Shown piece after piece: positions 26,945-63,018 of a stretch of 64,000 nucleotides of DNA (position 1 is the stretch's first letter; every line of letters starts with the position of its first letter). The notes below the pieces were generated by a model. The model ran no database searches, was not told the DNA's origin, and saw only the letters and a program-made list of their open reading frames with translations. A program made the translations under genes and the position numbers. The DNA is from Prostheceraeus crozeri (taxonomy: Eukaryota; Platyhelminthes; Polycladida; Euryleptidae), in NCBI GenBank assembly GCA_907163375.1, contig CAJQUW010009001.1, forward strand, positions 1-64,000. Reading direction: 5' to 3'.

Positions 26945-29900
26945 GGCCGAGAGTAAAATGGCACCTGGTAAATCTTGACATCGTTATTTAGATGTTGAGA
27001 TTTAATCTTAAGTTTAAATTAAAAAGAGTGTGTGGCGTAGATCTCAGCAGTAAGCTAGCGGAGGCCAACGGCAGGAGGAGGAGTAGCACCTTACCCCAGG
27101 CCTGGGCCCGATGGCACCGGATAAGTCCCGCTGGTAGTCCTGGTCTCCACTCCTGTCGTTGAAGTGCTTGTGCCAAGCAGGTCGTTTTGAGTAGATGGAT
27201 GATGTGGAAGAGAAGGTGCGAGTATGGGTAGGCTGGGCTCAATAGCCGTAGAGAAGGCAGTCAGCCTAGGAGATGGAAAACTCCGAGTAAAAACCCGGAC
27301 TGATGAAATCTGTTAGACTTTTAAGTTCATTTTCATCTAAGAGTTCCAGCTTGACAAAAACTGATTGGCGTCAGGAAGGGCATCCGGCCATGAAAACACT
27401 CGCTCCATAAGCATCATGATGGCAAGAAGAAATGATGGGCAGCAACCAGCCCGTAGGTTGCCGTGGGCGGCACCAGCCTACGATAAAAAGGAAGGTGCAA
27501 ACCCTCAGCAGACGATGCAGCGTCTTGTACCGCCATATGACGATCAACTGAGATCGGATGGGCGTCAGAAGCTGAGGTTCGGAACATGGAATGTTGGTTC
27601 CATGGTTGGCAGAAGTATGGAGGTGGCTGACGAAGTGAGGAAGAGGATGGTTGACATCTGCTGTCTTCAAGAAACGAGGTGGAAAGGTAACTCAGCTAGA
27701 TTTGTTGGACCCAAAGGTAAAAGATTCAAATTTTGGTGGAATGGAGAGGAAAACGGCGGAGTAGGAGTTTTGATAAAGGAAGAGCTGATTGATGGATTGT
27801 TAGAAGTAAGGAGATAAAGTGGAAGAATCATGGTAATTGTGCTATCTCTCGGAAGACAGGTGGTACGTGTCATCAGCTGTTACGTCCCCCAAGCTGGACG
27901 GCCTGAATCAGAGAAAGATGAGTTTTATAACGATCTATCAGATGAGGTTGCTCTGGTTGGTTCGGGAGAATTTCTGGTTGTCGGCGGTGACTTCAACGGT
28001 CATATTGGAGCAAATGTAGATGGATATGAAGGGATTCATGGTGGTTTCAGTATTGGTACACGTAACAGAGAGGGTTGCAGGCTTCTTGAATTCTGTGCTC
28101 AGTCAGAGCTGGTCGTTACCAACACGTGGTTCAAGAATAAGAGAAAGAACACTTTTCATTCCGGCAATACTTCATCACAGATTGACTACATGCTTGTTGG
28201 CAAATGTTCACGAAAGAAGGTTCAAAGAGTCCGAGTCATACCTGGAGAGCTGCAGCATAGCTTAGTCGTGATGGACGTATCGGGTATTCGTAGAAACAAG
28301 AAGACGGGGTTTTGGGAGAGGAAACCAAAGACATGGAAATTACGTGAACCTGAAACTCAAGCAAAATTTGAGGAGAAGATGAATGACCTGTGGCACCGTG
28401 ATCCATCAATGCCTGGCTGGTTGAAGTACAAGAAATGCGTCTCGGAAGCGACTGAAGAAGTTTGCGGCATCAGCAAAGGTAAACCACAGCACGGAGAGAC
28501 TTGGTGGTGGAACGAAAGCGTTCAAAAAGCAATTACAGAGAAGAAAACAGCATTTAGAGAGTGGTCGATTGGAAAAACGGAGATAGCTCATGTGAAGTAC
28601 AAAAAAGCGAAGAAAAATGTGAAGAAAACAATTGCAAAAGCTATGAAAAACGAAACAGAGAAAGAGCTAGACACCCTCGAACGAAACCGTCATAACATCT
28701 TTACAAAACTTCGAATGATGAAGAGAGATTCAGCGGACATAAATGAATGTAGATGCCTCAAGGATAAAGAAGGGCGGATCGTTTTTGAAGAGATTGAGCA
28801 AAGTAAAATGTGGAGAGACCACATGGAGAGCATCATGAACCAAGAGAACAGTTGGGATGGCATGGTGGAAGCAGATGTAGTTGAAGGACCAATTTTCAAG
28901 GTTGAAAAAGAGGAGATCGGAAAAGCATTGAGGAGTATGAAGAATGGCAAATCTAGAGGCCCTACCGCTGTTGTGAAGGAACACCTAGTTGCTTCTTCCC
29001 ACGGTTTGGAAGTGATGCACCAGATTACAAATGAAATCTTGCAAGGAGCCAGCATACCGAAAGATTGGAGGGAGAGCACCCTAGTACCGATTTACAAAGG
29101 CAGAGGTAGCAGAATGGAATGTGGTTCGTATCGGGGTATAAAATTGTTAGAACATGGTATGAAGGTTGTCGAACGTGTGTTTGAACGAAAGCTTCGAAGC
29201 ATCATTGACATCAGCGACATACAGTTTGGATTCATGCCTGGGAGAGGAGCGATTGATGCCATTTTTATCGCCAGAAGAATGCAAGAATGCTACATCGAGA
29301 AGAAAAAGGATCTTTACATGTGCTTTGTTGATCTTGAGAAGGCTTTTGACAGGGTTCCTCGACCAGTGATCGCTTGGGCACTCAGAAAACGCCTAGTGCC
29401 GGAATATCTAGTCCAAGCCGTTATGAAATTGTACGAGCATCCAGTGACGAAAATCAAGTTTGGCAGAAGTGCGAGTTTGTCGGACAGCTTTAGCGTTGGA
29501 GTAGGAGTTCATCAAGGTTCTGTTCTTTCACCGCTGCTCTTCGCCACTGTTCTGGATGTCTTATCTGAATCTGCTCGAAAGGAGGCGCTATGGAATATAT
29601 TGTACGCTGATGATCTGGTGTTAATGTCGGATTCTATGGAGAGTTTGGAAATTGCATTCAATGACTGGAAGAAAGTGTTCGAAAACAAAGGTCTGAAAGT
29701 AAACATCAAGAAAACGAAGGTGATGAGAGCGAGTGGTGGTCAAAAAGTAATTGATGAGGCCAAGCAAGATCCGTGTGGAGTGTGCCGCAAGCGTGTAATG
29801 AGAAATTCTGCACGATGTAATTCATGTCGAAAGTGGGTACATGCCAGGTGCGCAGGCGTAAAGAGATTCACGAAGACCAAAGGAGATGGATTTGTCTGTA

Positions 29901-30605
29901 AGTCGTGTCAGCGAAGTGACGGGGAAAGTGAGATGAACAGCACGAATGAAGAGTATATGAAGGGTATTGAGAAGGTGGAACGCTTTTGTTATCTCGGTGA
30001 CACAATCAACAGTGGTGGTGGATGCGAGATAGCAATTGACAGAAGATGCCGTCTTGGTTGGATGAAGTTTAATCAGCTCTCATCAGTACTATGTGGAAAA
30101 CGCTTTACTAACAGACTAAAAGGAAGAATTTATAAAGTATGTATCCGGCCAGTCATGACCTACGGCTCAGAGACATGGAATATAAGATCTGCGGAAGAGG
30201 GTGTCCTCCGAAGAACAGAGCGAGCCATGATAAGAAAAATGTGCGGAGTAAAACTTGCTGACAGAAAGAGCACTGACGAATTAATGAAGCATTTGGGTTT
30301 GACGGAGACGGTTGTTGAGGTGGTGAAAAGGAGTAGCTTAAGATGGATGGGTCACATCCTGAGAAGAGATGATACACATCCACTTAAGAAAGCATGGACC
30401 TTTGAGAAGGAAGGAAGACGAGAAAGAGGAAGACCAACCACGTGGAAGAGCATGGCGCTGAGGGAGTGCAAAAGAGCTGGTCTGAAAGCAGAAGATGCAA
30501 GTGATCGAGCGAGATGGAGGAATGGCGTGTCAGCGTGGTGCGAACGTCAGTAACCCCTCGCAAGAGGGAAAAATGCTGACGAAAATAAATGATGATGATG
30601 ATGAT
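26945..30605 (+). mobile_element. RTE/jockey-like non-LTR retrotransposon, nearly full length
   Basis: A GC-richer 5' leader (from about 26945, limit approximate) is followed by endonuclease and reverse transcriptase coding sequence (27416-30553), a short 3' UTR with AATAAA and a (GAT)n tail at about 30588-30605. It lies within the TIR element 26594-31856. Confidence 0.88.
27416..30553 (+). pseudogene. LINE polyprotein (endonuclease + RT + PHD-like finger), one in-frame stop
   Basis: The frame runs for about 1,045 codons with a single TAA at 27815-27817; reading continues in the same frame from 27818 to the stop at 30553. The apurinic endonuclease motifs are FGTWNVG, LQETRWKG, VGGDFN, SQIDYM and HSLVVMDV. 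RT motifs are LVPIYKGRG, GFMPGRGAIDAI, CFVDLEKAFD, HQGSVLSPLLF and the catalytic ILYADDLVLMSD (about 29600), then NIKKTKVM. A Cys/His cluster of C4HC3 spacing (CGVC, CNSC, HARC, CKSC; about 29771-29910) interrupts the region after RT, and a LINE C-terminus (TYGSETWNIR, RWMGHILRRD, RGRPTTWKSM) follows. The first ATG in frame is at 27416. Apart from the stop the coding sequence looks intact, so it is probably a recent copy. Confidence 0.9.
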
Positions 30606-36049: not shown

Positions 36050-36269
36050 AATAGGGCATCCTCCGAAGAACAGAAAGATCCATGATAGGGTGTGTAGAAC
36101 ACAGCTTGCTGACAGGACCACTGATGAGTAAATGGAACATTAGCGGTTGACGGAGACCGTTGTTGAGGTGGTCTAGGGTTAAGATGGATGGATCACATCT
36201 TGAAAAGTTATGACAGTCATCCAGTTAAGAAAGCATGAAACTTCGAAAAGAGGCAGACAAACCACGGGG
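36050..36269 (+). pseudogene. 5'-truncated fragment of the RTE-like LINE, left half
   Basis: The sequence follows the 3' coding part of the LINE at about 30196-30440 (shared blocks CATCCTCCGAAGAACAGA, GAGACCGTTGTTGAGGTGGT and AAGATGGATGG), with substitutions and small deletions. It breaks at the Transib insertion and resumes at 39644. Confidence 0.85.
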
Positions 36270-37099
36270 CACAGTGGGTCAGAAGCTGGCAAAACCTCAA
36301 AAAATTTTTTTGAAATTCTTCTTGAATCAGTGTATTTATTGTTACAGATGTTCTGGCTAGCACATATGCATAAGTTTTGGTTCACTTGTTTAAATCGTTT
36401 TGATTTTACAATATTTTAAATCTGTCTGTTGTATTCAAATTACGTTTCGGTTCGTGAAGTTTACAGATTGGGTCCTGGAGATCTCATCTATAAATCAGTT
36501 GGTAAGTGATCATTTTGATCATTTTTTACTTTAGTTTAGTCAACATATGTGTTAATTCTTTAAATCGGAGTGGTTAAATGGACTCTCATTATTTTTTAGT
36601 AGACAAAACTTAGTTTTCTCTAAAACAGCATGTGGAATTGATTAGTTAAATGTACTAAAATTCATAAAAACTATGCGCGCTTTCTGAGTTCTGTCGAATT
36701 CCGTCCTTAAATTACCTTTAAGATATGTAATTCAGTATACCAAACAATATTACGAAGAAATATTCTGCTAAGCAGTGCCTATTAACGTCTTATACCACAA
36801 TGATTGATCATCTTTACCAGGATGACATATGAGAAAAATAAGGAAAAATCTGTGTTGCTCATTGAGTTCGAACCCAAGCCCTGCTACACGCAAACCGTAA
36901 GCACTATCCGTTATGCCATACCGATGCTTATGACACGACAATGCAGCGCTTCACGTGAATCTTTCATCAAGTCACAACAACTACTACTCACAACACTATA
37001 GCTGCATATCAATTGTAGTGATAATTCGAAAAAAAAGCTGCGAGAAACCTAATTAAGGTTTTTATTCTTTCAGATTGAACCACCATTCGGTATGGACTA

Positions 37100-39160
37100 G
37101 AAAAGCCTGGTATCCTACCTTTTTGATAACAAGACATCTATTCAAAGCGAAAACGCAATAACACAATTGACACAACACATTAAAGAGACGACAAACTTAC
37201 AACTTCCTGATGATATCGATAAAGTCACTACTGAAATCATGTACAAGGTACGCATTAGATGGCAGAAGGCAAATAGAACGAAGAATGTTTTTCTAAAACA
37301 AAATGAATCCTGGCTTTCTGAAATGCTATTCAAGAGTGGTGCCGGTAATACGAGTAAGGGTGGAAGACCCTCTGTAGAATTTGAGTCGGCGTCCACCGGG
37401 ACAAAAAATCGAAAGGTCACGGGTATTGTGAGTGAATATTCTTCAAACGAACTCTTATACGCATAAAACAAGAGATTAACAATCGAACAGAACACTGAAA
37501 AAGCTAGAGAAGTGAGAAATTTCTGATGAACACCAGACCAGTCCAGAAGAGGCTCTAGCTCTCATACTAGACACTAATCTAACAAAATCGAGTTGTCAAC
37601 TACTGCGAAACCATGCAGTAAGACAAAACTGGAACATATATCCAACATATCATACTATCAAAGAAACTAAAGCCCAATGCTACCCAGAAGGCATCAGCGT
37701 GGCAGATTTCCTATCCGAAACTTGTTAGATCATACTCTTCAAAGGATATATCTGGCTCAGAGAGAAGTCCTGACATCCGAAAGTATTCCAGAATTTAATC
37801 GCTTGTCGTTCAGATGGAAAATCGGGTTCGATGGAGCTACCGGACGATCAGTTTATAAACAGACTTCACTCGAAGAACGACAACTTGCTAATGAAAGCAG
37901 TTTATTTCTAACATGTGTTGTACCTCTGGACATTTCTAGTTTTGCCAATGGAAATCGAACGATAATCTGGCGGAATCCAAAGCCATCATCTACAAACTAC
38001 TGCCGTCCGGTTAGATTCAAATATGAAAAAGAAACAAAAGAAGTAGTCCAACAAGAGTTTGAAAGGATAAAAAATGAAACGACTGAAGTACTTGAGACCA
38101 GAACTTCCATTAATGGCAAGGACATCACTGTTCATCACGTCTTGCAATTGACGATGATAGACGGAAAAATACCTACATCTCTGATGTGACCAATTCAATG
38201 CAGTGCTGTAGCATCTGCGGTGCTTCACCAAAAGAGATGAACGACATTGACAGACTGTTAGAAAAGTCTTATGACAGCAGCAATCTTAGATACAGGATTT
38301 CGATCCTGCATGCGTGGATACGATTTTTTGAAACTGTGTTGCATATTGCATATAAATTGCCGATCAAAAAATATCAGGCAAGAACATTGGCCGAGAAACG
38401 TTCTGTAGAAGAGAGAAAAAAGGAAATTCAGAAACAATTCCGAGAGAGAATGGGTCTTGTAGTTGATCAACCTCGAACAGGATGTTCTGGAACGTCAAAT
38501 GACGGCAACAGTGCGAGAAGAGTGTTCCAAAACTCGAATGTAGCTTCCGAAATCCTACAGATCGATCGCACACTTCTCGAAAAACTACATGTCATCGTCA
38601 TCACAATTTCATGCAACTTTGACATGGACTCAGAAAAATTCAAATCACACTGAATTCAAACAGCAAGATGTTACACGCAACATTACAAATGGTATCCCAT
38701 GCCACAATCAGTACACAAAATCTTATTACACGGACATGCAATCATAGAAGTGTGCAGTTTGCCTCTTGGGATGTACTCAGAAGAAGCGCAAGAGGCCTCA
38801 AACAAATATTTCAAGAAATGCAGGTATGTCTATAGATGAAATTCCGAAATTGCCATGTTGTGCTTCTGCACGAGCTCTTAATCTTAAAAATATATGTGAA
38901 ATTAGTTAATAATATTATTATACTTGTGCTATTACGGATGAATGAAAGTTTTTTTTTTAATTTCCAGAGAACAATTTGCGAGGAAGATATCAAGTTCATC
39001 GACTAACCATGATCTCATGAGAAGGTTGCTGTGCAGTTCGGACCCCCTGATCGCAACTTATCGCAATAATCGAAATACAAAGAAATTGGCTTTGTCATCA
39101 GATGTACTTTCCCTTCTAAAGGAGCCCAATGAGCTACATTTCATTTCATTTGATTTGATT
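37100..39160 (+). pseudogene. Transib transposase (decayed, RAG1-core relative)
   Basis: The order of motifs follows Transib/RAG1. First, an N-terminal part with SWLSEMLFKS and GGRPSVEF (37300-37380). Next, EEALALILDTNLTKSSCQLLRN and YPTYHTIKETKAQCYPEGI (37535-37700). Then LLDHTLQRIY and WKIGFDGATG with the first catalytic Asp (37830-37832), and WRNPKPSSTNYCRPVRF, which parallels the RAG1 EPKPNS block. The second Asp is in MIDGK (38160). A zinc-binding CCSICG follows, then RKKEIQKQFRERMGL, GNSARRVF, WYPMPQSVHKILLHG and SEEAQEASNK with the catalytic Glu (38780-38785). A short intron (donor GTATGT after 38835, acceptor TTTCCAG before 38968) leads to the C-terminal REQFARK and LLCSSDP. There are frame changes near 37465, 37710 and 38170, and an in-frame TGA at 38651. 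No RAG2-like gene is present. Confidence 0.9.
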
Positions 39161-39283
39161 GATCAAATTTTCCGTGCGTATGTTGTAGTCTACACAGTAA
39201 AATTGTTCCAAAAATATTGGTTTTACATGAAAGGTGTGGGTCAGTGAATATAATACGCTTTATACACAAAATCGCAAAGCTGT

Positions 39284-39580
39284 ATCTAACACAGTTTTCT
39301 GGTTGCTATGCAGAAATAGGCTCCCTAGCAACCGTTGCTAAGGGAAAACATCACCATTAAATCCGGCGCTGTCGATTTAGTTAGAATTCATGTCAAGTTT
39401 TTATATCTTGTGATAGCAGCTCAACAGCAAGTTTTGTACATACAGTTTTAATATCTATATCTAACATGGTTTTCTGGTTGCTATGCAGAAATAGACTCCC
39501 TAGCAACCGTTGCTATGGGAAAATATTACCATTAAATTCGGCGCTATCGATTTAGTCGGAATACATGTTAAGTTTTTTAT
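39284..39580 (+). repeat. Two direct copies of a 122-bp unit in the Transib 3' region
   Basis: Copies at about 39284-39407 and 39459-39580 share CCTAGCAACCGTTGCTA, itself a palindrome-like block, and TCGATTTAGT. They differ by a few substitutions. Period is about 175 bases. Confidence 0.85.
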
Positions 39581-39643
39581 CAACAGATGCTCATAGCCGG
39601 GGATAAGGTTTTGTCCCGTTTTGCGGGGTTTTGACCCACTGTG

Positions 39644-39800
39644 CGGGGATGAGAATGGTGCTAAGGGAATGCAAAAGGACAGATTTGATGGACAAGATTG
39701 TGTTGTGTCATAATGATGCATGCGTCAGCAACCTCTCGCAAGAGTTGACGAAAACAGTGACGATGACTCACCACTTGAATAATATGCGCTCAGATAGAAA
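39644..39800 (+). pseudogene. RTE-like LINE fragment, right half
   Basis: This resumes the LINE at the position matching about 30445 (AAGGGAATGCAAAAG parallels AGGGAGTGCAAAAG) and runs to its 3' end (AACCTCTCGCAAGAG, then a GATGAC tail). Confidence 0.82.
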
Positions 39801-45070: not shown

Positions 45071-47363
45071 TCAATGAGAAGGCTGAGGCTGCTTCGAAGA
45101 TGTCAGCTGCTTTATATTTGGTTCTGTCTTTGAAAGGCATACACGCAAATCGCTTTCTATGTTAAGCCGAGTTCTATACTTGCTCATTAAGCTAACCATT
45201 GAACTGAATCCTGACTCGCAAAGGTAGGTTGATGAAAACATCAATAATTTCTTCATAACTAGAAATGCGACACGAGCGTATTTCTCCGACACTTTACACC
45301 AGAAATCAGATAATGTAGCACTAGTTTCAAAAAAGTCTTGTATATGAGTCATTTTGAAGATCGATGAGTTCCTCTTGGTACGTATGGGGACATAACTGTG
45401 GTTCAATCGTGAAAGGGTTTCTGGCGATTCTCTGCGTAATGTCATCAATTTGTGGAAGGTAAGAAGAAACCTCGCTGTGAAGTGACTGTAAGTGAATACA
45501 AATATCTTCTTGCACCGACATAACTTCTTCCACCGAGGACTGTTGAGCATGCTCGTAGAAACAATCAAACATTGCGAAGTTGTTCTCACTAGCATTTGTT
45601 TCCCATAATTTCAGCTTGGCTAGAAATGCTGCAATCAAATTCATGAAATCCAAAACAGTTGCACTACCACCTTGCATGGATCGGTTCACAATATTAATTC
45701 TCCCAAATATATCTGACATATAGCTCAGTCGTAGCATCCATGTTCTGCCGTTCAACCTATCCACGAAAGCTGCAGTTCGAGCGTCACCTTGTTGTTGAAA
45801 GAAAAGGAGCAATTCTTCTGCTAAATGTAGCATTCGATTCAGCATGTTTCCGGCTGACAGCCACCGTACTTGTGTGTAGTAGAGAAGGTTTTTGTGTTCT
45901 GCAGACAGCTCTTGACAAAGAACGCGGAATAGGCGAGTGTTCGTGGCACTTCATTTGACAATATTCACCATTGCTATCACGTCCTTGAGGCTAGGACGTT
46001 TTCGAGGCTAGGGCATACCGGTGAATCATACAATGAAGAGCAACGCACGATGAGCTGACATCTTTGACTCTAGCTTGAAACCCTGAATTTCTACCAAGCA
46101 TGGCAGGAGCTCCATCCGTTGTTACTGCGCATAATTTTGACCAGTCTAACCCGGATTCACGAAAGAACGTATCAACTTCTCTGAAAATGTCCTCTGATGT
46201 AGTCGTATTAAGTGGACGACAGAACAGAAATTCCTCTTTTAAATGACAATCTGTCATGTACTTTACAAATACCATCAATTTATGGTGTCCGTGGCACAGT
46301 GGTTGCGTACTTGGACTAGCGATCTCATGGTCCAGAGGTCGAACCCGGAAAGTGTCACTGGAAGTCGGCAGGAAGGGCATCCGGACTACAAAGCACCACA
46401 ACGCTCCAAACAAAGTCTGACTTCAGTCAGCACCGTCCCAGGCCCCAGTAGGGGTAAAAAGTGACGTAAAAAAAAAAATTAACTGAGAATTACTTTTGAT
46501 ATCAGTTGACTCATCCAACTGTATTGCGAAAAAATCAAATGCAGAATGCTTTATTTTCACTTATGACTTGCGATTTTATGTCATCTGCTGTCATCAATGC
46601 GACGTTTGATAGTATTGTCAGAAAGGGACAGTGGTGCAAGTTTAGCGACATACTTATCTCCTATCATTGTTTCTATGATATCTCTACAACACGGTAATAT
46701 CAATCTCTCACCGATCGTATGGGGCTTCTTTTCCTTTGCTATGCGTAACGCTACTTTATATGAAGTTTCCACTGCTGCTTCATTCCCTTTAACGAACGTT
46801 CCGGACTCATCAAGACGCAATGCCATTAATGACTTAAGCATATGTCTGAAATAGTCACTGTCTTTCTTTGTCAACTCAGGGTGGCATCCACTCAAATGTC
46901 TTTTCAAAAGACTTGGCTTCATACTATGGCGTGACAAAACTTTCGCGCACACAACACACTGAGGGCATTCAAAGCCGTTGTGTAGGATTGATGTGAAACC
47001 AAATTCGATGTAGCAGTCACTGTACTGTCGGATTTTCGTGGAAACTTCTTCATTAACCACAACACTTGAAGAAACGGAGGAAACCTCTAAAGGCGCAGCA
47101 AACAACTCAGTTGAGGCACGAGGTGACGACGACGGTTCCGGCACATGTAGTCGAATAGATTCCAAAGGAACTTCAGTCGAGGCATGAGATGATGGCGATG
47201 ATTCTGGCACATGTAGTCGAATAGATTCCGAAGGCACTTCAGTTGAGGCACGAGATGATGGAGACGGTTGCGGACAAAAGAATCTACTTATTTTCGGTGT
47301 CGACATACTTGAATGTTTTAAGCTTCGATCCCTGTCACGTTTTCGTCTGTTTGCACCAGGCAT
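45071..47363 (-). pseudogene. hAT transposase, ZBED5/SCAND3 family, several frameshifts
   Basis: Minus-strand order: a Ser/Pro-rich leader with three imperfect repeats (SSRASTEVPSESIRLHVPE); a BED-type zinc finger (CPQCVVCAKVLSRHSMKPSLLKRHL); LPCCRDIIETMIG and LSLSDNTIKRRIDD; then after a frame change FFAIQLDESTDI with the first catalytic Asp. Beyond a SINE come VFVKYMTDCHLKEEFLFCRPL, TTDGAPAML (second Asp) and ALHCMIHRYALA. A further frame has the insertion region, and the last one the hAT dimerisation domain (SSTYLCESGFSSMVSLMSKYRTRL, about 45140-45240). At least four frame changes show that it is dead. The family is known both as transposons and as domesticated vertebrate genes; here the flanking TIRs show a transposon. 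Confidence 0.88.
46283..46478 (+). repeat. tRNA-derived SINE inside the hAT copy
   Basis: The head has box A TGGCACAGTGG (46292-46302) and box B GGTCGAACCC (46337-46346). The body contains CAGGAAGGGCATCCGG (46369-46384), and the 3' end is an A-run at about 46468-46478. It interrupts the hAT transposase frame just before VFVKY. The target duplication is short and ambiguous. Confidence 0.82.
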
Positions 47364-48237
47364 AGTTTATTCTTCTATAGAAGATTCCGGTAGTCTCTAA
47401 TTAACAACAGGAGACGTCACAGCAATGAAGTAAGTCAATCACTCTTGAACTCGCAGTACCTTAAGACAATTCAGTATCAACTACCAACCCGAAATCTCAT
47501 CTGTCTATTTCTCATTCCTGTGACGTAGTGTGTTAGTGTAACATAGCTACATCCCACGTTCCCCTATCCATCGACAGTGCCGCGTGCGTTACTGTGTCAG
47601 CATTCAAGCATGCGTTTCAGTTGGCAATCGATGCGTTCACTGAAAGCGCGTCGACCAATCGTGGATAGAGCGTGAATTCGACCATGTCATGCTGTGCAGC
47701 TTGTAAGTTGAAAACATCAGTGTACACTGTACAGTCACACTCACAACAGAGTTGAGTATTACAGCTAAATTACGAATGCTTATGCCTGTTTTTCACATCC
47801 TTCAGCTGCATGCTTAGTAAATATTTGAATTCTTAATTTCAAGACGCGTACCCCCATACAGAAGGGGCACGTACCCCCAGGGGTACGCGTACCTAAGGTT
47901 GAAAACCGCTGTGGAATCCAATATAATAGGCTGCATTAAAAAAAGTGGGTCCAGTAAACTGAGCCAGAATATTTTATTTACATACACGTACGTAATTATT
48001 CTGTTCATCGACTTTGATAAAGAAATCTAACAGCATAACTACAGCAAGTAAATCAAATTTTGTTTTTTGATGTGTCACACACAAAATTCGTGAGATGTCG
48101 CTCACGGTACACAAAATACTCTCGTATGACTTAATTATTTCTATTTACATATACCGTACTTATATACATGTACTTCAGAACGTCATCAAGATGTATGAGT
48201 AGAATTGAATTAGCAACAAATATTCGAGCCCAAACTG

Positions 48238-48547: not shown

Positions 48548-51500
48548 CAGGGTGCCCGCGCATTTTCGGATAATTTTCAGACTTATGAAAAAAAGTCCAG
48601 TCATGATCCCAATTTACGCAAATTCACCCAAAAAATTGATTTGATTAACCTAAGGGAAGAAAAACGGCTGTATTCGGCAATCAGAGAGTCTACCGACAGA
48701 AAGGAATCACTCAGAGGACACTCCTACCTACGGATGGACATCAAAGTCGAAACATAGCAGACTACAGTCTGAAGAGAACATGAAAATACACAGGAGAGAG
48801 TACAATTAAGTTCGAAAGGCGGTACGAGCCGATATGAAAATATGGCTGTAATAGAAAACCCGACTGATTGTTCGAACAGAGTGCGCAGAGGCAGAGACTC
48901 GCCAAGCATACCTGCTGATCAGCGATATCAATGCAAAATGGGTACCGAAGAAACGATTTGCTAAAGATCGCGATGAAAAACTTAATCATCCGAAGAGACC
49001 AAGGAGAGATGGACTGAATACTGCCGAGACCTGCATGCGTAGGCGCATGATTATGACACCACAGTAGAGACGGAACTTGAAGACATGGTCGTCAGCGCAT
49101 TGGCATGGCATTCAGAAAGTTAACAGGTTTTGATAAAATACGGAGTAGTCACGTGATAAGCACAAAAACGGTGTTGTAATCGTGTGTTTCTAGCGTGCTG
49201 ATGCTTCCTACGGAAACGTGGACGCTGAGAAAGACGGATAAGCGGAGTCTCGATGCCTTTGAGTTGCGGTACTTCCGAACAGAACCAAAGTTACACCTTG
49301 TGTAAATGATTAATAATAAGCGCACAATGAGTCTGCTCGGCCACATATACCGCATAAAAGATCATTGCCCAGTGAAGATCGTGCTGCTTGGTATCGCGAA
49401 TGGCAAGTCGTAGAGTCGATCCATGATGTGGTGGACAGACAGCATCTAAGGTTGGTGCAAAGCTGACCTACACATGATAGCTACGATGACAAAAGAGACT
49501 GGTGGAATGTAACCGAACGCGAAATTGAGGACACCAACGGAAGATTCGACCTGCTCGAAAAATCAAGGTAAGTGAGCAAAATGATTTAAGGGACCAACAG
49601 TCTGTTTAGTTAGTAGTTCTAACCAGTGCATTAGACTTTTTGGTGTAAATGAACGATGTTTTTAGTCGTACACCAGCAAGCGAAGGAACTTTGCAAATGG
49701 CACTTCCTAGTAACTGCCGCGGAATTGAATATTTTTCAATTCATGAAACTGATGAACGAACTGAGCTGATACTTCTCAGTCATACATTTACTAGAGGGGA
49801 AATTAATTCTCACATCGCCTTACGCTGTTCAGACAAAGACAGCCCCGTTTAGAGCAACTTTCGCTCAGACAAATATGCACTGTTGTTTCTATTCTTTAAC
49901 ATGTTATGTATGATGTGTACAATGTAAATGAGTAGATTAAAGATCAGACCAGACAGGGATTTTTAATGTCATTCTAGCCGGCACAGTGCCGCACAGGAAT
50001 TTTCGTGCGCCTTATTGAATATTTCATAAAATTTCTCTCGATTTCTGCTGGGTAATAAACAAAAGGATGTGGTAAAATTCCAGGTAATTATGGCTTCTAG
50101 TATTTATGAGTTATATGCACGTGGGATATAGCCCAATCAACTACCTGATGAATTTAATGGTAGGCCTATAGGATTGCATTTTTCCAGGTATTCCAGAAAA
50201 ATCCGGGATTCGGAATTGGATGGCTTCCCTGTAGTAGCAGTTTTATGAGACAAAGGCAAGTCAAGTACAGTTTTATAAATTGACAGAATGACAAAGTAGG
50301 CTCATAAGAAAGAATGATGGACACTATGCAGAATAGTTTCTTTGATTCTCAATGTGGTCAACGAGCGGGGCCTTTCAAAGTGAACAAAAAGGAGGTGAAT
50401 GACTTGAATAACACCATAAGTGAGTGACTTGAATAACACCATAGCGCAAAATGAAATTGAATGGGCGAACTGAGTGAACGAGCAAAAAAGTTGAATGAGC
50501 GAAGAACTGAGTGAGCTGAATAAGTCATGGCCTTATTCGCCTTATCAGAATACAGTGGTGCCTTTGGATCCGGGAGCGATCGTTTGCATTGAAGTTTCGA
50601 ATATACGTGGGTGATTCCACGACGATTCACACAATTTTCAGAAAATTTTGTGGCATTCTCTGATTTTGCTGATTTTTGGGTATATGTTTGCTATGTGACA
50701 GACAACACCAAATCTGTCACATTAGCCTCCAATTTTGAATATAGCGGGATCTAGAGCCATTTTTAGAAATATGATTTTTTTCCAAAATTTGAATTTTTCT
50801 GCATATTCGTCACTCAGCAAAACTTTGCATGCAACATCAGCTCGGCAAGAAGGAATTCTTGGATGAATTTCAATGAGTAACTGGCATGCAGAACGGAGCT
50901 ACATGGCTCCAAATATGGTGAAAAAATAGGGTCCGCGAAAATACACAAATAATTTAAACTGACATCACAACTTTCATATTCTTGTTACCCGCAATATCAA
51001 TGATAATTGTGTTGCTATATATCAGTGTGGTTCACATCTGTGATCTTAAGCGGTAACCAGAATCAGAAAGCTACACCAGGCGTTCAAAAAACGTGATTTT
51101 TCAAAGAATGCCGAAATGACTGTTTTCAAGCTCGGCTAGCCTTTTTCCATATGCCAGTTTTGACTCCAAATTGATATTGAAACTCAGAAACATGCTCAAT
51201 TACTTGTAGAAGAAATTTGATCAGATAACCGATAGTTAAAGTGGTATAAAATGGCCAATTTTGATTTTGTATTATCAAATATATCATATAAGAAGCATCG
51301 AGAAGTACTATTTATAGTGATGAAAAGGAATAGACGCCACAGTCGACCATCCAACTTCTTATCTATATCAACCATAATTTTAATACTTCTATACGTCTTA
51401 CATAATTGACAAGATGGCTTCTTAATCAAGTTGCGTTTATTTTCTCCCTCATTATGTCTTCACTAAATATATGAGTCGGCTTACTAAAATGTTTTCCCAA

Positions 51501-51846
51501 TTACGATTTTGTCCACGTCGAGTTTTAGCACCTATGGTCATTTCAATTTTCTCAATGTATTGAAGTATCGCTCATGTAGTTCCAATCGCATTCAGTGCAT
51601 TCATTGAGATAAACTGCGCTACATTGCTTTCCCAGAGCTTGTCTTTTCTCAATTGGCCAAAACTAGCTAGAAACATTTGATAAGGAAAAGCGCCATGAAA
51701 GTTAGCAACAATGAACACACAACGCGATTGGAATAATGTGAGTGAAGCTTCAATACTTCGACTTATTTATCCTATATTTTTCCAGACTTACGACATTTTC
51801 TTAAAAATGATAATTTCCAGACTCTTCCAGACCCGCGGGCACCCTG
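48548..51846. mobile_element. Pair of opposed hAT-type termini bounding 3.3 kb
   Basis: CAGGGTGCCCGCG at 48548 and its inverse CGCGGGCACCCTG ending at 51846, with further similarity inside (TTTTCAGACTTATGAAAA versus CCAGACTTACGACATTTTC). ATTAT borders both ends, but no clear 8-bp duplication. It could be one non-autonomous hAT element containing older LINE sequence, or two separate copies. Confidence 0.5.
48650..49560 (+). pseudogene. Internally deleted LINE relic
   Basis: The first part includes RWTEYCRDL (about 48990-49020), typical of the region before LINE reverse transcriptase. Directly afterwards comes PTETWTLRKTDKRSLDAFELRYFR (about 49205-49280), the block after RT, then LLGHIYRI and MMWWTD, the LINE C-terminus. 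The RT core with its YADD box is missing. Frames are broken. Confidence 0.7.
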
Positions 51847-52789
51847 ATTATTTAAATCAGCATTGGAAATTATTACACGATTTCTCAGGAACAAATTCTT
51901 TTTCATTATCAACATCAACAAATTGCTGCATAAGCCTAAATGTCGCACCGACTATAGTGGGTCGTCATTTTAGATATCGTCGAAAACAACAAGTTGAAGA
52001 TAATAGTCGTCCAACTCACTCAGGGCAGACCTGACCAGCAGAGATCAATTTGGGAACTAATACGTATTTTCGCAACTTTTAGCACAATTTTGTTTGTTAA
52101 ATTGTCAAAATGCAGATTTATTAAACAATGATTCAGAAATTCAGATATACATAAATAAATTCCCAAATCCCAAACCTAAGTACTGGAAAACAGTACGTTA
52201 TTTTTTTCATACAATTTCATATCTACGAGTATTTCATACAAATGCATTTGGACATTAGTTCCGAGTCTGACAGAGATAGCCTACATTTTGCTCTTTAAGT
52301 CTCTGCATTTCAATGTGCTTTTTTAATCCTATCAGTAGTGAATGTTACATGTAAATAGAAAAAGGGGCCTGTTGAATAGTGTGTGTTCTTTGGGCGATTA
52401 CTCAAGGCCTGCGGGTTATAGACAAATCTGAAACCGTAGAGAAGACAAACTTCACGCACCCCTTATTTGAGGACTGCAAAAGCTGCAATTGCTATCAATA
52501 TAACAATAAAACTAATTAACCATATGAGAATAATGTGCTCATATCAGTTTTTTCCACTTACATAATGATCTTTATTCTTCTCAAAATTTCCCGGGAATAA
52601 ACTCGAAATTATCTGGAGTTCCATTTCCGAGAAATTCCGTGTTAAACCTTAAATAGGCCCAGCCAAGTTTGAAACAACCTCAGAGGCCTCATTTTCTTAA
52701 TCTACATGCACTTGCTGCTTGATATTTACTGACATTTCTGTCCATTTCAATTGGGAGGGTCAACTATAGAAAATACTTTTCTATGTTTA

Positions 52790-54025
<1,236 letters not shown>

Positions 54026-55319
54026 TTATAAAACAAATGCATTTTCAAGTGAAATCAATCTTTTGTTTTCAAATTGAACTGATCAATTTTCAAATGATTT
54101 GCTTTCAAATTGATATGAAAATTATTCTGGTATCTGTCAGATACCATGTTCACTGAGCTTTTATATTAATGAAAATATGAATGAATTGATGAAAGCACTA
54201 TGTATTAAAATTCTCCTACAGATGCGCTGCGCATATTGAAGACATTATAACCATGTAATATTTCTAACCTACATTAAATACCATGATGGTCACTAAGGTC
54301 TAGTAGGCTACCACGTCAGGTCACCGAGGACATTGCAAGATACCTGAAGTTAGTGGAATACCCAGCTACTCCTTGATGAGAACCTGGAACTAATTACTTG
54401 AAAAGCGAAATCAGAGAGGCGATGGAATGACTGATAAACATGAACCGGACGCTACGTGGAAATCCGAGTTGTTGTCCGATCCGTTGTCGAGTTGACGCGG
54501 ACATTGGAAATTGGCTTGAGACATTGGGAGTTTCTTCTGCTAGTATATATTAATTGCCTTAACTAGTTCAATCTTAATCTGATCACATGGATTCATACTT
54601 GAAATGAACTTAGCTAGCTATATTCAAATGCTGCAAGCAAACCCTAAAAATTCAGTATTTCTTTAAGTAACACATCCTGAATGTTTCAACTACGTAGGGA
54701 TAGGTGAATGGTGGGACCAAGCCCACCCTGCTGAATTCCTACGTCTGGGGTATTTTGATCTCAAAAAGTAGTCATATGTATCATGTTTCTGTATATTCAT
54801 ATATACATATATGAATTCATTCATGAAACAAGAAACAACAAAAACAAGAAGTAACATGTTTTGCAATAGCACTGCCTTTCGACGCTAGACCCGATGAATT
54901 AGAAATCAGCTACAGGTGTGTTAGACTACACCGTCAAGGCAATAACAGGCATCCAAACAAGCAATCATGTAAAACAGGAGGCCAAACTAAGTAAACATAA
55001 AAGTCTCCAAAATGAAGCTGTTTTTTCAGTAATTTGCTTGCTTTTGACAATTTTCATAAATTTTTGTCTCAATGAGTTGAAGAAAAATGCGAAGATTACA
55101 ACAATTTTCAAGCAAGCGGTGTTATACACTGGTGGCAAAATGTCTTACCCATCCCCTGCGAAATACCTGTTTTGATGATTTCGCAGTCTCTCATTACTCT
55201 CATTATTGGTTATTTCAGCGATTTTACTTTTATCAACGTCGAAACGCGACCAGGCGGGAACCTGTTGACGACTGGATGTTGTCTTGTTGGTTTTTATTCT
55301 TTTCACAACTATTAATTTT

Positions 55320-57425
55320 ATGTTCAGAAGGCGGAAGTCCATATTGCAATATTTTATTGATGGTTCGCTAAGCTCATCGCTGCCTCTTAGAGCGGACACG
55401 GCAGATCAAGTGACATCAGACTATCGGGAGTGAACACTACGCATTTGCATATCAGTCGAACAATGAAAACGGTGTCTGAATAAGGCATGTAACAATACAG
55501 TAAGATCACGTACGAAGTCAATAGAGTCAATCACAGATGATGAGATAGCGAAGGAAATAAAATTAAATAAAGGGAAAGAAAAGGAAAGTTAAATCAAAGT
55601 ACAATCATACAAATATTCTTTTTGAACACACAATACTGGTTTGGTAAAACGAATCTGTACAGCCTCTGCAACACGTAGCTCAAATGGTGAGCGGCACTGT
55701 CTCACTACTTTAAAAAGTCTTTGTTGGGAGGTATGGAGCAGGTTGAGGCATGGCGGGTAGCCGAACGGGGATCAGAACGGGTAGCCGTTGTTGGTTAAAA
55801 CACGTCTGAGCAATGCTTTCCATAGTCTTTCCCGCAAACTGGATGAGTGGTTTTTACAACCCATTTTATCATCCTTCAAAAGCAACTGCGTGCGGAATTC
55901 ATCTGCGTTCGCCGATGCTATGCGCCAGATGACTGTTGATGATCAGCACATCCTGATAGGTTTCGACTTGAGTAGTCTTTTCACGAACATCCCTGTCCAA
56001 GAGACTATAGATATAATATGTGATGAACTCTACCGACGAGGAAAACCACCTCCAAAAGTAGGCCGACTGCCTATTAGTGAAGTTAATGTCCGGCGTTTAC
56101 TCAGCCTCGTTACCAAGAATGTGAAGTTCGCTTTTGATGGTGAGACATACCGACAGGCCGCCGGCGACCGGGCAGTCCGCTGAGCGGCTCGTTCGCCGAT
56201 ATTTTTGTCGGTTTCTGTGAGTGGAGCCTACTCCGTAACTTTCGGCCAACTTCCTACCTCCGATACGTCGATGATGTCCACGTTATCATCAAGCAACAAG
56301 ACCTTGAGAAGTTTAGACTCTCTTTATCGTCGTTACATGGAAATCTCAAGTTCACCGAAGACAGTGGAGATCACTTCCTAGATGTCTCACTTCATGTTGT
56401 TGACGGCCGGATACAGACCTCGGTATACCGGAAGCCAACATTCTCTGGGGTATACATCAACTACTACTCCTTTTGCCCTAGAGTTTACAAGGTGAATCTA
56501 GTGAAGTCTCTGTTCCATCGTGCGCATCGCCTCTGCTCTCCGGCTCATCTTGAAAGGGAGTTTACGCTGCTCAGACGTGTTTTAACCAACAACGGCTACC
56601 CGTTCTGGTTCATCGAGAGACATTCAACTCCTGTAGTGCGTCCTCAGATACCCACTGTGCCCAAGAAAGAGGTATTCTTTGCGGTTCAGTACACCGGGAA
56701 CTCCTCAGCTCAGATAGCGAGCAGCATTGTGAAGATGGTAGAGCGCGCTTTTACTCACGTGCGGTTGAGAGTGTGGTACCGGACTCAATCACTAGCACCC
56801 AACGCCCCCAAAGTTCCGACGTTTCACCGTTCTTGTGTGGTCTATGCCTACAACTGCGCCTGCGGAGCAGGCTATTTGGGACGCACGGAACGTTCTTTGG
56901 GCACAAGGATAGATGAGCATTTACCGAAGTGGTGCCTACAACAACAGAGCCGACCACTGTCAAGGGCCCTCCCAACCTCTGCCGTGACACGCCATGCCTC
57001 AACCTGCTCCATACCTCCCAACTAAGACTTTTTTTAAAGTAGTGAGACAGTGCCGCTCACCATTTGAGCTACGTGTTGCAGAGGCTGTACAGATTCGTTT
57101 TACCAAACCAGTATTGTGTGTTCAAAAAGAATTTGTATGATTGTACTTTGATTTAACTTTCCTTTTCTTTCCCTTTATTTAATTTTATTTCCTTCGCTAT
57201 CTCATCATCTGTGATTGACTCTATTGACTTCGTACGTGATCTTACTGTATTGTTACATGCCTTATTCAGACACCGTTTTCATTGTTCGACTGATATGCAA
57301 ATGCGTAGTGTTCACTCCCGATAGTCTGATGTCACTTGATCTGCCGTGTCCACTCTAAGAGGCAGCGATGAGCTTAGCGAACCATCAATAAAATATTGCA
57401 ATATGGACTTCCGCCTTCTGAACAT
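55320..57425 (+). mobile_element. Penelope-like retroelement between 436-bp inverted arms
   Basis: Bases 55320-55755 and 56990-57425 are near-identical inverted copies. The right arm holds the 3' end of the coding region and the 3' UTR; the left arm is the same sequence in reverse. Beyond the left arm, 55773-55806 is an inverted copy of coding sequence at 56569-56606, so the upstream piece is a reversed, internally deleted copy of the same 3' end. Between them lies a 5'-truncated RT plus GIY-YIG coding region. Confidence 0.88.
55788..57025 (+). pseudogene. Penelope reverse transcriptase with GIY-YIG endonuclease (truncated, frameshifted)
   Basis: The first frame (to 56183) has the RT motif FDLSSLFTNIPVQETID, the Penelope form of the A box, and VKFAFDGETYRQ. 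After a frame change at about 56165-56171 the next frame reads GSPLSGSFADIF (B box), LRYVDDVHVII with the catalytic Asp pair (about 56256-56286), and HFLDVSLH, YRKPTFSGVYINYYSFCP. The C-terminal part has a Cys-rich segment (VVYAYNCACGAGYLGRTERSLGTRIDEH, about 56838-56920) typical of the Penelope GIY-YIG endonuclease. The N-terminal third of RT is missing. The indel and deletion fall where the conserved MGSPLSG block begins. This copy is not functional. Confidence 0.85.
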
Positions 57426-57544
57426 AATTTATCAACTATTAATTTTGCTACCTTTTTTAGATTAACGGGCTACACAAATGTTCCGACGCTAACCTCCAAA
57501 GGATTGGCATGCTAATTACTGGTGTCTATTTCTATCTAAGTTCC

Positions 57545-59876: not shown

Positions 59877-62286
59877 CTAAGGCACCCGTTTTCTTTTTCT
59901 GCCAGCTTCCATTAGCTTCAACTTCTTCTCGTTGGCAGATTTCTTCATTTCCTGACTTCTCGTTATCAGGGCATTCGCGGCATTGATTTTGTTGATGTCA
60001 ACCCTCGAGCAGCCTTCAGTTAGTAACTTCGTTCCTTCATTCAACAAACCTTCAGCTTCAAGCAATTGACGCTGGACATCAGCCATGTCCTCATCACGCT
60101 TTGTGACTTTCTGCTCCTCATGAACGCTTTGTAGCAATTTCTTCTGCTGTTCAATCCTCTCGAGGTAATTGACTCTTGCACTCGTTACTGCCTTTCTGAG
60201 GGACTGTGTCAACGGCAATTTTGCCGGATTGCCTTTATGCTTTTTCATAAACGAACTAGTTGAACGATAACCGTTCAACGTTGCGCCAGTCATTCTTGTC
60301 CGTTTTGGAGTCAGCAACAGTTTGTTTTCGCTGAATGAGCGCTCCACATCAGCATTGCCGTGTGAAAGAGTCAAACACAATTTAACGAGCTTGGCTACAC
60401 TTGGATATTTGCATGTACCATTTGTAGCCTTGATCCTGAAGATTTTTCGCCAATAGTCTTCTATCCGTTGCCCAGCATTGGCATCAACGTCATCTTCATT
60501 CTCTTTCTCATCATCAGATTCCTCCGAGTCAACTTCCATCGGGATGCATTGCGAACTAGTGTCACCGAGATCTTCAACTTTCAAAGCCTTCCACTCATCA
60601 ACGACAGCATCTATTTTGTCCCGAGGGAATAGTTTGATGGCAACAGCCAAACGTCGCACAGCTTCAGACGACCACACAGTCTTCCTGGCAAGTGGGGGGT
60701 GCAACGCTTGCAAATCACGCAAAATGGGATTATTGAGGGGCAATTTTTTCAACAGGAGTGAGACAACATCGATGTAGAAGGTCTTTGCGCGATCAAGAAA
60801 ATCATCGAATTCTTCTTCATTTATCTTGCCTTCTGCCTTCAAAGAAGCCAGCGACTTGAGGCAATCATGGCCAATGTATGGACGCTTCAAATGATTTGCA
60901 GATGACTGATAAGTTACTTCGCAAAGCTGTAGACCTCGGGCCTCACCAATTTCCTTTTCAGTCACGAAGCGTCGAAGAAGTGTAAGAATCAAAGTTGACA
61001 ATTCATCATGTAGCACATGAATAAGAGGAGCTTCACTCTGGAGCATCCTTGTCACTCTCGTGAAGATTGGCATCGCTGATTTCATGAACAGAATTTCCGG
61101 TAGGAGGACTTTGTTGTTCAGGATTTCCACCAATTTCTTTATCCTGCTGTTCTTTCTCTTCTCGGAATCACTGATCAAACGTGAGCGAAGAAAATATTCT
61201 CTTAACGCCGGATATTGTTCCAACAGTCGCTTTGTAATATCTTCAATCGTCAGCCACCGACTAGGAACATGTCGCAAGAAGATATGCTTCTTTATTTCTA
61301 GCTTTTCTTGGACTTTTTCAAAGTCCTCCCGTCTGACTGATGAGTCTGAAAAGAAATAGTAAAGCTCCAGTCCCAGAGATTCAACATCATTGCCAAACTT
61401 GTCGTAGGCAGAGCAGAATGCATTGTGAACTTTGTGAATGTTGCAAGTGTCTATATCAACTAAATCAGGATTCAGCTTCTTCTTTGCCTCCTTTGTCAGG
61501 GCTTTCATGACGTTGGGGCACAGTTGAAATTTGCAACAATTTCTTTGTGTACAGAGGCGTGGCAACATCGGCAAGCTTCTGGTATAGCAATTTGTGATTT
61601 ACACGTCCCAGTGTCACACTTGAAAGATGATATACCACCACGCTTTCGTTTTCCTCCGAGTAATAGCGGGCCAGCACGTCCAATTGCCGCCAATGCTTAG
61701 CAGTGGTGGTTTCGTCAATTTCAAGAGTGTAGGCAAGAGCTGTGTTACGTATCTCGTTTTCAACAAGAGATTTGAAGTGTGGTCCAAGACCATCAGACAA
61801 TATACGTGTGGCTTTGTTCCTCTTCATTTGCATTCCTTTTGCAATTTCGGAATCGGGAAACATTGACGAAAATGACGGAACCATGGTATCACAAACATTT
61901 ACAGGTATGTTACAAACGGCTAATGAAGTACAAAACATAGCTTCCGCATTCACAATCTTTTCATCAAGTGACAATCCAGCTGATTTGCTACTCGATGATT
62001 TGATGGAACTTGTAAGGAGAGTTTGAGTACGTTTCAATTGCTTCAGCTTCTTATCACTATCACGGTGCCGTGCCGAGGCACTGATGTGACTTGCTGCTCC
62101 TCCATGTCTACTCAAAGCACTTCGACCATGTTGGCCTACATCAATTTCGATATCACAAATCAAACAATGAGCCTTATACAAGTCGTTTGTAGATGAAGAA
62201 GTGCACCAGTAAGAAATAGGATCATCATTTTCATCATTGCCTTGCAGCATGGTATTCTTAAACACTTGACGGTGCCTTCCTGACAT
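59877..62286 (-). pseudogene. hAT transposase broken at a catalytic site
   Basis: The first frame (62286-61465) has a zinc finger near the N terminus (AHCLICDIEIDVGQHGRSALSRH) and LEIDETTTAKHWRQL with a likely first catalytic Asp. The second frame (ending 59877) starts at PNVMKALTKEAKKK, then CNIHKVHNAF, HVPSRWLTIED and the dimerisation motif LTLSHGNADVERSFSENKLLLTPKRTRM (about 60290-60370). It ends in a long charged coiled-coil tail and a basic C terminus (GRKRKRV). The frames overlap at 61465-61574. They meet exactly where the family's DGPNV motif, with the second Asp, is expected, implying a small indel there. Both frames are otherwise open over 800 codons, so inactivation looks recent. 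No terminal repeats were found. Confidence 0.85.
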
Positions 62287-63018
62287 AGTTCATCCTGAAA
62301 GACGAAAGCAAAATCCTGCATAAGCATGAGTACGGCTGAAAACAAGGACATGCGAGTACTACATGCACATGCATAGCACTATCGTATGAGTGATTCATAC
62401 TTGTCCAAACAAGGGTTGCTCCATCTATGATTTATCATAGGCAGTGATGCAGTTGTTTCCTGATATTCTGGAATTTAGGCCTAAATACATAAATTCACAC
62501 ACTGCTAATTCAAAGGAATGGACTTGAAAGTATAATTTGGGTCCAAGGAAAAATCCGGCAATATGAATAATAATCCATGTGTAGAAAGTCTTTAACATCG
62601 GCGCTAGTCAAATCTGTTGGGTAAAAGCAAAAGAAATCTGAATCAAAATTTCATCCAGCCTTATTACACCTGCTTTTACGTTTTTTGTTGTATTTAATCT
62701 GACTAATTGATCCGAAAAAATCCTTACATTTGGACAAATATTAATCGTTCGGCACCGAAAAACATGAAAGAATAAGAATTCTGATAGAGACTCGTCAAAT
62801 ACATGTATGACAGATTTTCCTAGAGCAATTACATCATCCCTAAGACAATTCATTTTGCCTATCCAATAGTGATTATCTTTAACATGTGTTTCATAAATCA
62901 CGTGAAAATGATTAGCAGCTTAATGAGGAGTTTCAAATAAGTACATGTAGATTGTAGAGGTAAATCTTTTTAACGAAGCTGGTAGAAAGTATTACTATCT
63001 AAGCTTCAGGAAAAGTGC

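Follow-up and report, generated by a model that had tools for sequence, protein, structure and literature searches.

Cut-and-paste transposition with hairpins formed on the donor side is established for RAG and is understood to apply to Transib as well. HzTransib, found in PDB 6pqn and related entries that name it only as a transposase, is taken here to be the Helicoverpa zea protein. With regard to the ends, PMC8355894 describes asymmetric ends for Transib5 of Drosophila melanogaster and for Transib2, N1, N2 and N3 of Anopheles gambiae, beside symmetric ends with 20-22-bp spacers, and both kinds are also reported in PMC9435367.

The DNA analysed here, called the window throughout, is a 64,000-nucleotide stretch of the polyclad flatworm Prostheceraeus crozeri (contig CAJQUW010009001.1, positions 1 to 64,000). 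It contains a Transib-type element of 3374 bp at 36270-39643, whose lineage is called family 1. Like HzTransib, the element encodes a DDE core with the FDG, MIDGK and SEEA contexts, CxxC and HKxLxH motifs and a short zinc-binding segment; unlike HzTransib, the window copy is broken in frame. The absence of the extra zinc-domain segment (alpha11-alpha12-like) and the presence of a GRP motif are shared with the Transibs that Tao et al. 2022 (PMC9435367) assign to subgroup II, and by these sequence features family 1 and a second lineage, family 2, would both be placed in subgroup II. With ProtoRAG, other RAGL transposons and vertebrate RAG1 the element has in common 5-bp duplications, a CAC heptamer and distant homology, whereas it differs from ProtoRAG and RAGL in giving no RAG2L match in the frames scanned, in its terminal inverted repeat (TIR) and in a much weaker match.

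Boundaries and insertion site of the element

The boundaries and the surrounding LINE sequences are as follows.

36265-36269, no strand assigned: left copy of the target site duplication CGGGG (5 bp, perfect)
39644-39648, no strand assigned: right copy of the target site duplication CGGGG (5 bp, perfect)
36050-36269, plus strand: LINE 3' fragment left of the insertion, from the flank alignment
39649-39750, plus strand: continuation of the LINE 3' fragment on the right side, its outer limit being approximate
30194-30474, plus strand: LINE copy continuous through the junction, a paralogous empty site, from alignment with the joined flanks

Both ends of the element read CACAGTGGGTCA (36270-36281 and 39632-39643), and the 36-nt arms (36269-36304 and 39609-39644, one duplication base included) are 78% complementary. 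From base composition, about 0.04 pairs combining a 12-bp TIR with a 5-bp duplication are expected by chance per window at distances of up to 5 kb. At distances of up to 6 kb the window holds two, this element and the stretch at 48548-51846, which is element-like and has an exact 12-bp TIR CAGGGTGCCCGC and the 5-bp duplication ATTAT. The exact 12-bp inverted termini, the CGGGG duplication and the interruption of a LINE fragment are as the preliminary description had reported them.

The joined flanks can be aligned with window 30194-30474 over 281 columns at 72%, and the alignment is gap-free where it passes the junction. The claim that the pre-insertion site can be read from this LINE holds for the gap-free passage through the junction, but the locus is a paralogous one and carries CGTGG opposite the duplication CGGGG. 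A genome search with the left flank, for which 40 of 130 candidates were scored, gave at least 40 matches, the window flank among them. Three LINE copies outside the window were read for the empty site: the alignment with L063 runs well beyond the junction, that with L064 stops about 14 bases beyond it, and L062 spans it, small gaps lying close by. What is read as the empty site therefore belongs to paralogous LINE copies and not to the same locus. In the LINE relative inside the window, a frame of 911 aa encodes a reverse transcriptase (RVT_1, E 3.8e-30) and is preceded by a 150-aa frame corresponding to an endonuclease; this LINE, at 27365-30553, also shows a PHD-like finger, below the Pfam cut-off, in the same frame as the reverse transcriptase.

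The transposase gene and its relation to RAG1

The transposase gene was located in the following pieces, the intron and last exon being predicted.

37101-37466, plus strand: N-terminal frame piece carrying GGRP, a match to the GRP motif of PMC9435367 that makes the piece nonamer-binding-domain-like
37516-37728, plus strand: frame piece that follows a frame-changing deletion of 5 bp (37518), which six other copies have as well
37671-38189, plus strand: frame piece with the catalytic Asp codons 37830-37832 and 38160-38162
38114-38653, plus strand: frame piece holding both CxxC zinc ligands (38207-38209, 38216-38218) and closed by the in-frame stop 38651-38653
38654-38823, plus strand: frame piece with HxxxxH (38714-38716, 38729-38731) and the catalytic Glu 38780-38782, exon end before GTATGT
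38824-38967, plus strand: putative 144-bp intron, GTATGT ... TTTCCAG, from splice signals and frame
38968-39247, plus strand: putative last exon with the C-terminal part, its frame staying open to 39247

Two of these pieces match HzTransib significantly (E 3.1e-21 and 8.8e-28), in agreement with the earlier assignment of the element to Transib. Both Asp codons share one reading frame, and the Glu, CxxC and HxxxxH residues lie in another, so that the decayed transposase does keep the Asp, Asp and Glu contexts and the zinc-binding residues first noticed in it, split over two frames. We take these residues to be the equivalents of RAG1 D600, D708 and E962 and of the RAG1 zinc ligands. A profile built from five genomic frames, L053 (family 1), L066 and L030 (family 2), L059 and L068, matched HzTransib with E 2.6e-125, amphioxus RAG1L with 6.8e-9 and RAG1 chains with 2.7e-8 to 1.8e-5. 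Six window pieces scanned against Pfam gave nothing significant (RAG1 E 0.16), the longer related frames L053, L066 and L059 had no Pfam match at E 0.01, and the whole-genome search with the Pfam RAG1 model gave none above cut-off (best E 0.381). The kinship with RAG1 that the preliminary description had put forward is therefore visible only through the profile of related genomic frames, at 2.7e-8 or weaker, and the window's own pieces fall short of it. Profile scans of bacterial and viral contigs confirmed no relatives among 171 and 289 pattern matches.

Taken with its ends, the element combines several features of the Transib superfamily, namely a homologous DDE transposase, the heptamer CACAGTG on both ends, a 5-bp duplication and, in the frames of the element that were scanned, a single gene without a RAG2-like partner. 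Outside the transposase pieces no frame is longer than 139 aa, and for eight frames there Pfam gave no match to RAG2, the best hits being to other families (E 0.08). This bears on the possibility that a RAG-like transposon (RAG1L-RAG2L, ProtoRAG-type) has lost its RAG2L, a reading compatible with the CAC heptamer, the 5-bp duplications and the RAG1-related transposase that RAGL and the element have in common. Such an origin appears very improbable: besides the shortness of the remaining frames and their lack of a RAG2 match, the sister lineage frame L030 scores 343.7 bits with HzTransib against 17 bits with the best RAG1 chain, families 1 and 2 are, by eye, without the extra zinc-domain stretch present in L059, and the ends deviate from the protostome RAGL consensus CACTWMCAAACKTYKBB, as given in PMC7204232. 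Large parts of the transposase frame are still readable, as in a domesticated RAG1-like host gene, but the three frame-changing deletions and the stop within the frame, the presence of TIRs and a duplication, and the dispersal of the copies leave that idea with a negligible chance. Short CA-type ends occur in several superfamilies, hAT, Chapaev and P among them, and the insertion of an element from one of these is just as negligible in view of the specific Transib matches over two large pieces and of the 5-bp duplications in 21 of 21 copies read. We conclude that the window element almost certainly belongs to the Transib superfamily of DNA transposons, as a broken and non-autonomous copy pasted into the 3' part of a LINE, presumably by a transposase acting in trans.

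Copies of the family and their history

A search with the 12-mer end found 97 exact ends against 98 in the control, single hits meaning little. Inward-facing exact-TIR pairs within 6 kb number 19 genome-wide, the window included, and a further exact pair, on C3665, lies 19 kb apart. The 21 copies that were read comprise all 19 pairs within 6 kb together with L057 and L058 from the protein search, a sample biased to intact ends; L055 among them is a diverged relative (67% where alignable), which leaves 20 copies in the family. At up to 3 mismatches the genome contains 28 matches to the 28-bp 5' end and none to the reversed-pattern control. Twenty of these, L055 included, belong to the sample read and eight lie outside it, L058 being absent with its degraded 5' end. 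The family size is about 20-28 copies. The genome search that had been proposed thus recovered the same ends in other copies, and not different ones.

Perfect 5-bp duplications flank 21 of the 21 copies read, the boundary in L058, where the 5' end is degraded, having been chosen with the duplication in view. C stands first in 17/21 and G last in 17/21, the palindrome CANTG makes up the duplication in 9/21, where 0.07 would be expected, and additional symmetric preferences, chiefly for T, extend into the flanks. The window duplication CGGGG is an outlier to the CANTG preference.

The window element differs by 1.2-4.5% from the other copies and by 10.6% from L046. Compared with the majority of copies it has three frame-changing deletions, counted with coding limits to 38826 and from 38969 that are 1-3 bases off the inferred splice sites, and the in-frame stop at 38651-38653. 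The deletion at 37518 is found in 7/20 family copies, the window included. The window copy and L044, which are 1.2% apart, both carry frame-changing deletions at 37518 and 38168 and are flanked by different duplications (CGGGG versus CTACG). Because lesions are common to copies at different sites, copies already broken have moved, presumably by transposase from elsewhere, and the window copy itself probably moved in trans; gene conversion could alternatively have spread the shared lesions. The earlier reading is thereby refined to that of a member of a multi-copy family, already broken when it moved. No intact family 1 frame was found among the copies read: in L048, L050 and L057 (3/20) the counted region is free of frame-changing indels, and at least one stop is present in each of these copies. 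Five copies (L040, L041, L042, L049 and L051), 0.2-1.5% apart, share an internal deletion (element positions 1349-1986) and make up a non-autonomous subfamily whose spread was probably later. Many small insertions relative to the other copies are seen in L046 (454-3990) and L058 (486-3981), which account for most of their 91 and 42 indel runs and may represent read error in those contigs rather than decay.

In the proposed sequence of events, the transposase of another copy would bind the two RSS-like ends of the window element, which would then be excised and inserted into the LINE 3' part with duplication of 5 bp of the target. This course would involve cut-and-paste chemistry with donor-side hairpins, a supply of transposase in trans and the pairing of one short-spacer end with one long-spacer end. 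The ends, the duplication, the pre-insertion LINE, the homology, the catalytic and zinc codons, the sister copies and the shared lesions are each shown by the sequences. On its own the window element is an ordinary broken copy, a new member of the already known Transibs.

Elsewhere in the window, frames at 55785-57025 within 55318-57427 look Penelope-like by eye, with no Pfam match at E 0.01, and this stretch is flanked by a 313-nt inverted repeat (97%). On the minus strand, hAT-like frames were recognised by eye at 45071-47366 and 59877-62289, the sole Pfam hAT dimerisation match among them lying at 59877-61598, below cut-off; an exon of a DEAD-box helicase (Pfam E 1.2e-50), likely a host gene, lies at 52787-54025, also on the minus strand. 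A separate contig of 100.7 kb (L070, G000:C6227) carries COX1, COX2 (recognised by eye) and seven tRNAs on a single strand, with TGA read within the frame of the COX1 match, and is either a large mitochondrial genome or a nuclear copy.

RSS-like ends in several Transib lineages

The protein search of the genome listed at least 96 stretches from 150 scored candidates. Family 2 is 46-49% identical to the window family and includes copies of 3347 and 3351 bp with the duplications CATTG and CCGTC, and a shorter copy with the duplication CTACG. L068 is 44% identical, and family 4 (L059, L060) about 34%. L059 measures 3982 bp, is flanked by the duplication CCTTG, and has the extra zinc-domain stretch as well as a frame of 742 aa that runs open between stops; L060 has the duplication AGAAG. 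These two (L059 351-4332, L060 550-4546) form a distant Transib lineage; the extra stretch of L059 aligns with RAG1, and L059 sits in a LINE reverse transcriptase (by eye). A search for ends in eight loci found a TIR pair with a duplication in six, L066 (stretch incomplete) and L068 being those without a TIR pair. That L066 is an intron-less retrocopy was considered and dropped; it is a fuller family 2 member, and L065 is without an internal stretch of L066.

The ends of the window element and its subterminal repeat are placed as follows.

36270-36297, plus strand: 5' end with CACAGTG, a 12-bp spacer and the nonamer-like GCAAAACCT
39606-39643, minus strand: 3' end with CACAGTG, a 22-bp spacer and the nonamer-like ACAAAACCT
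39280-39577, plus strand: 175-bp 3' subterminal repeat, present as two units (39280-39402, 39455-39577) that are 89% alike

The distance from heptamer to CAAAA is 13 bp at the 5' end and 23 bp at the 3' end in family 1, 13 and 23 in L055, 14 and 23 in family 2, and 13 (3' end) and 23 or 22 (5' end) in family 4. When the first 13 bp are set aside, the longest word common to both ends lies 9 or 10 bp further in on one end than on the other in all four lineages. Among 5000 shuffles its length was reached 33 times for family 1, 1105 times for L055, and 0 times for both family 2 and family 4, so that L055 alone is not significant. In the window CAAAA recurs 3, 13 and 23 bp after the 3' heptamer; across family 1 the 3' end has additional CAAAA words at 3 bp (20/20) and 13 bp (18/20), the 5' end has one at 21 bp (17/20), and L056 is without CAAAA at 13 bp of its 5' end. 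Similarity to the RSS nonamer ACAAAAACC in family 1 is 6/9 at spacer 12 and 7/9 at spacer 22, the 5' end also giving 6/9 at offset 20; the 5' end of L055 gives 6/9 at offset 20, equal to offset 12, and that of family 2 gives 7/9 at offset 21. With these extra nonamer-like and CAAAA words at 20-21, families 1 and 2 are also readable as having symmetric 20-22-bp ends, and the unequal spacing is clean only in family 4.

On the unequal reading, family 1 would resemble the asymmetric-end Transibs of PMC8355894, in which the spacers between heptamer and nonamer-like word are unequal and close to 12 and 23, but would differ in that its spacers are 12 and 22 (10 bp apart) and that the extra CAAAA words on both ends blur the difference. 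It resembles the symmetric-end Transibs of the same source in having CAAAA at 21 bp (5' end, 17/20) and 23 bp (3' end), and is unlike them in that the longest word common to both ends has unequal spacers.

The 175-bp units reach 5.7 copies in L050, and Tandem Repeats Finder reported no array at window 39280-39577. Over stretches of 64-92 bp, identity between the family 1 repeat and the 125-bp family 2 repeat is 75-89%, so that the subterminal repeat (window 39280-39577, L050 544-1542, L065 3992-4426) occurs across two Transib lineages. With L048 as query, blastn at E up to 1e-3 found no other similarity to L065 or L066, and L055, which shares coding DNA with family 1, has no match to the family 1 repeat. 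The repeat may reflect exchange, a common binding need or a host repeat. Among the papers listed by a literature search, no title concerned subterminal repeats of Transib, which does not prove that there is none.

The end asymmetry in four lineages recalls the 12/23 rule. It is conceivable, although we would not expect it, that several diverged Transib lineages in one genome all pair a short-spacer with a long-spacer end (12/22, about one helical turn) with no RAG2 in the element tested, that the V(D)J spacer rule would accordingly be ancient and belong to the RAG1/Transib transposase by itself, and that two lineages share a subterminal repeat by exchange or a common binding need. Its likelihood is lowered somewhat by the 5' ends of family 1, L055 and family 2, which also carry nonamer-like words at 20-21 bp. 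Transibs are RAG2-less relatives of the antibody-gene recombinase, and a genome that holds several of their lineages and many copies, with clean duplications and RSS-like ends, is a natural source of substrates with which to ask if the 12/23 rule predates RAG2.
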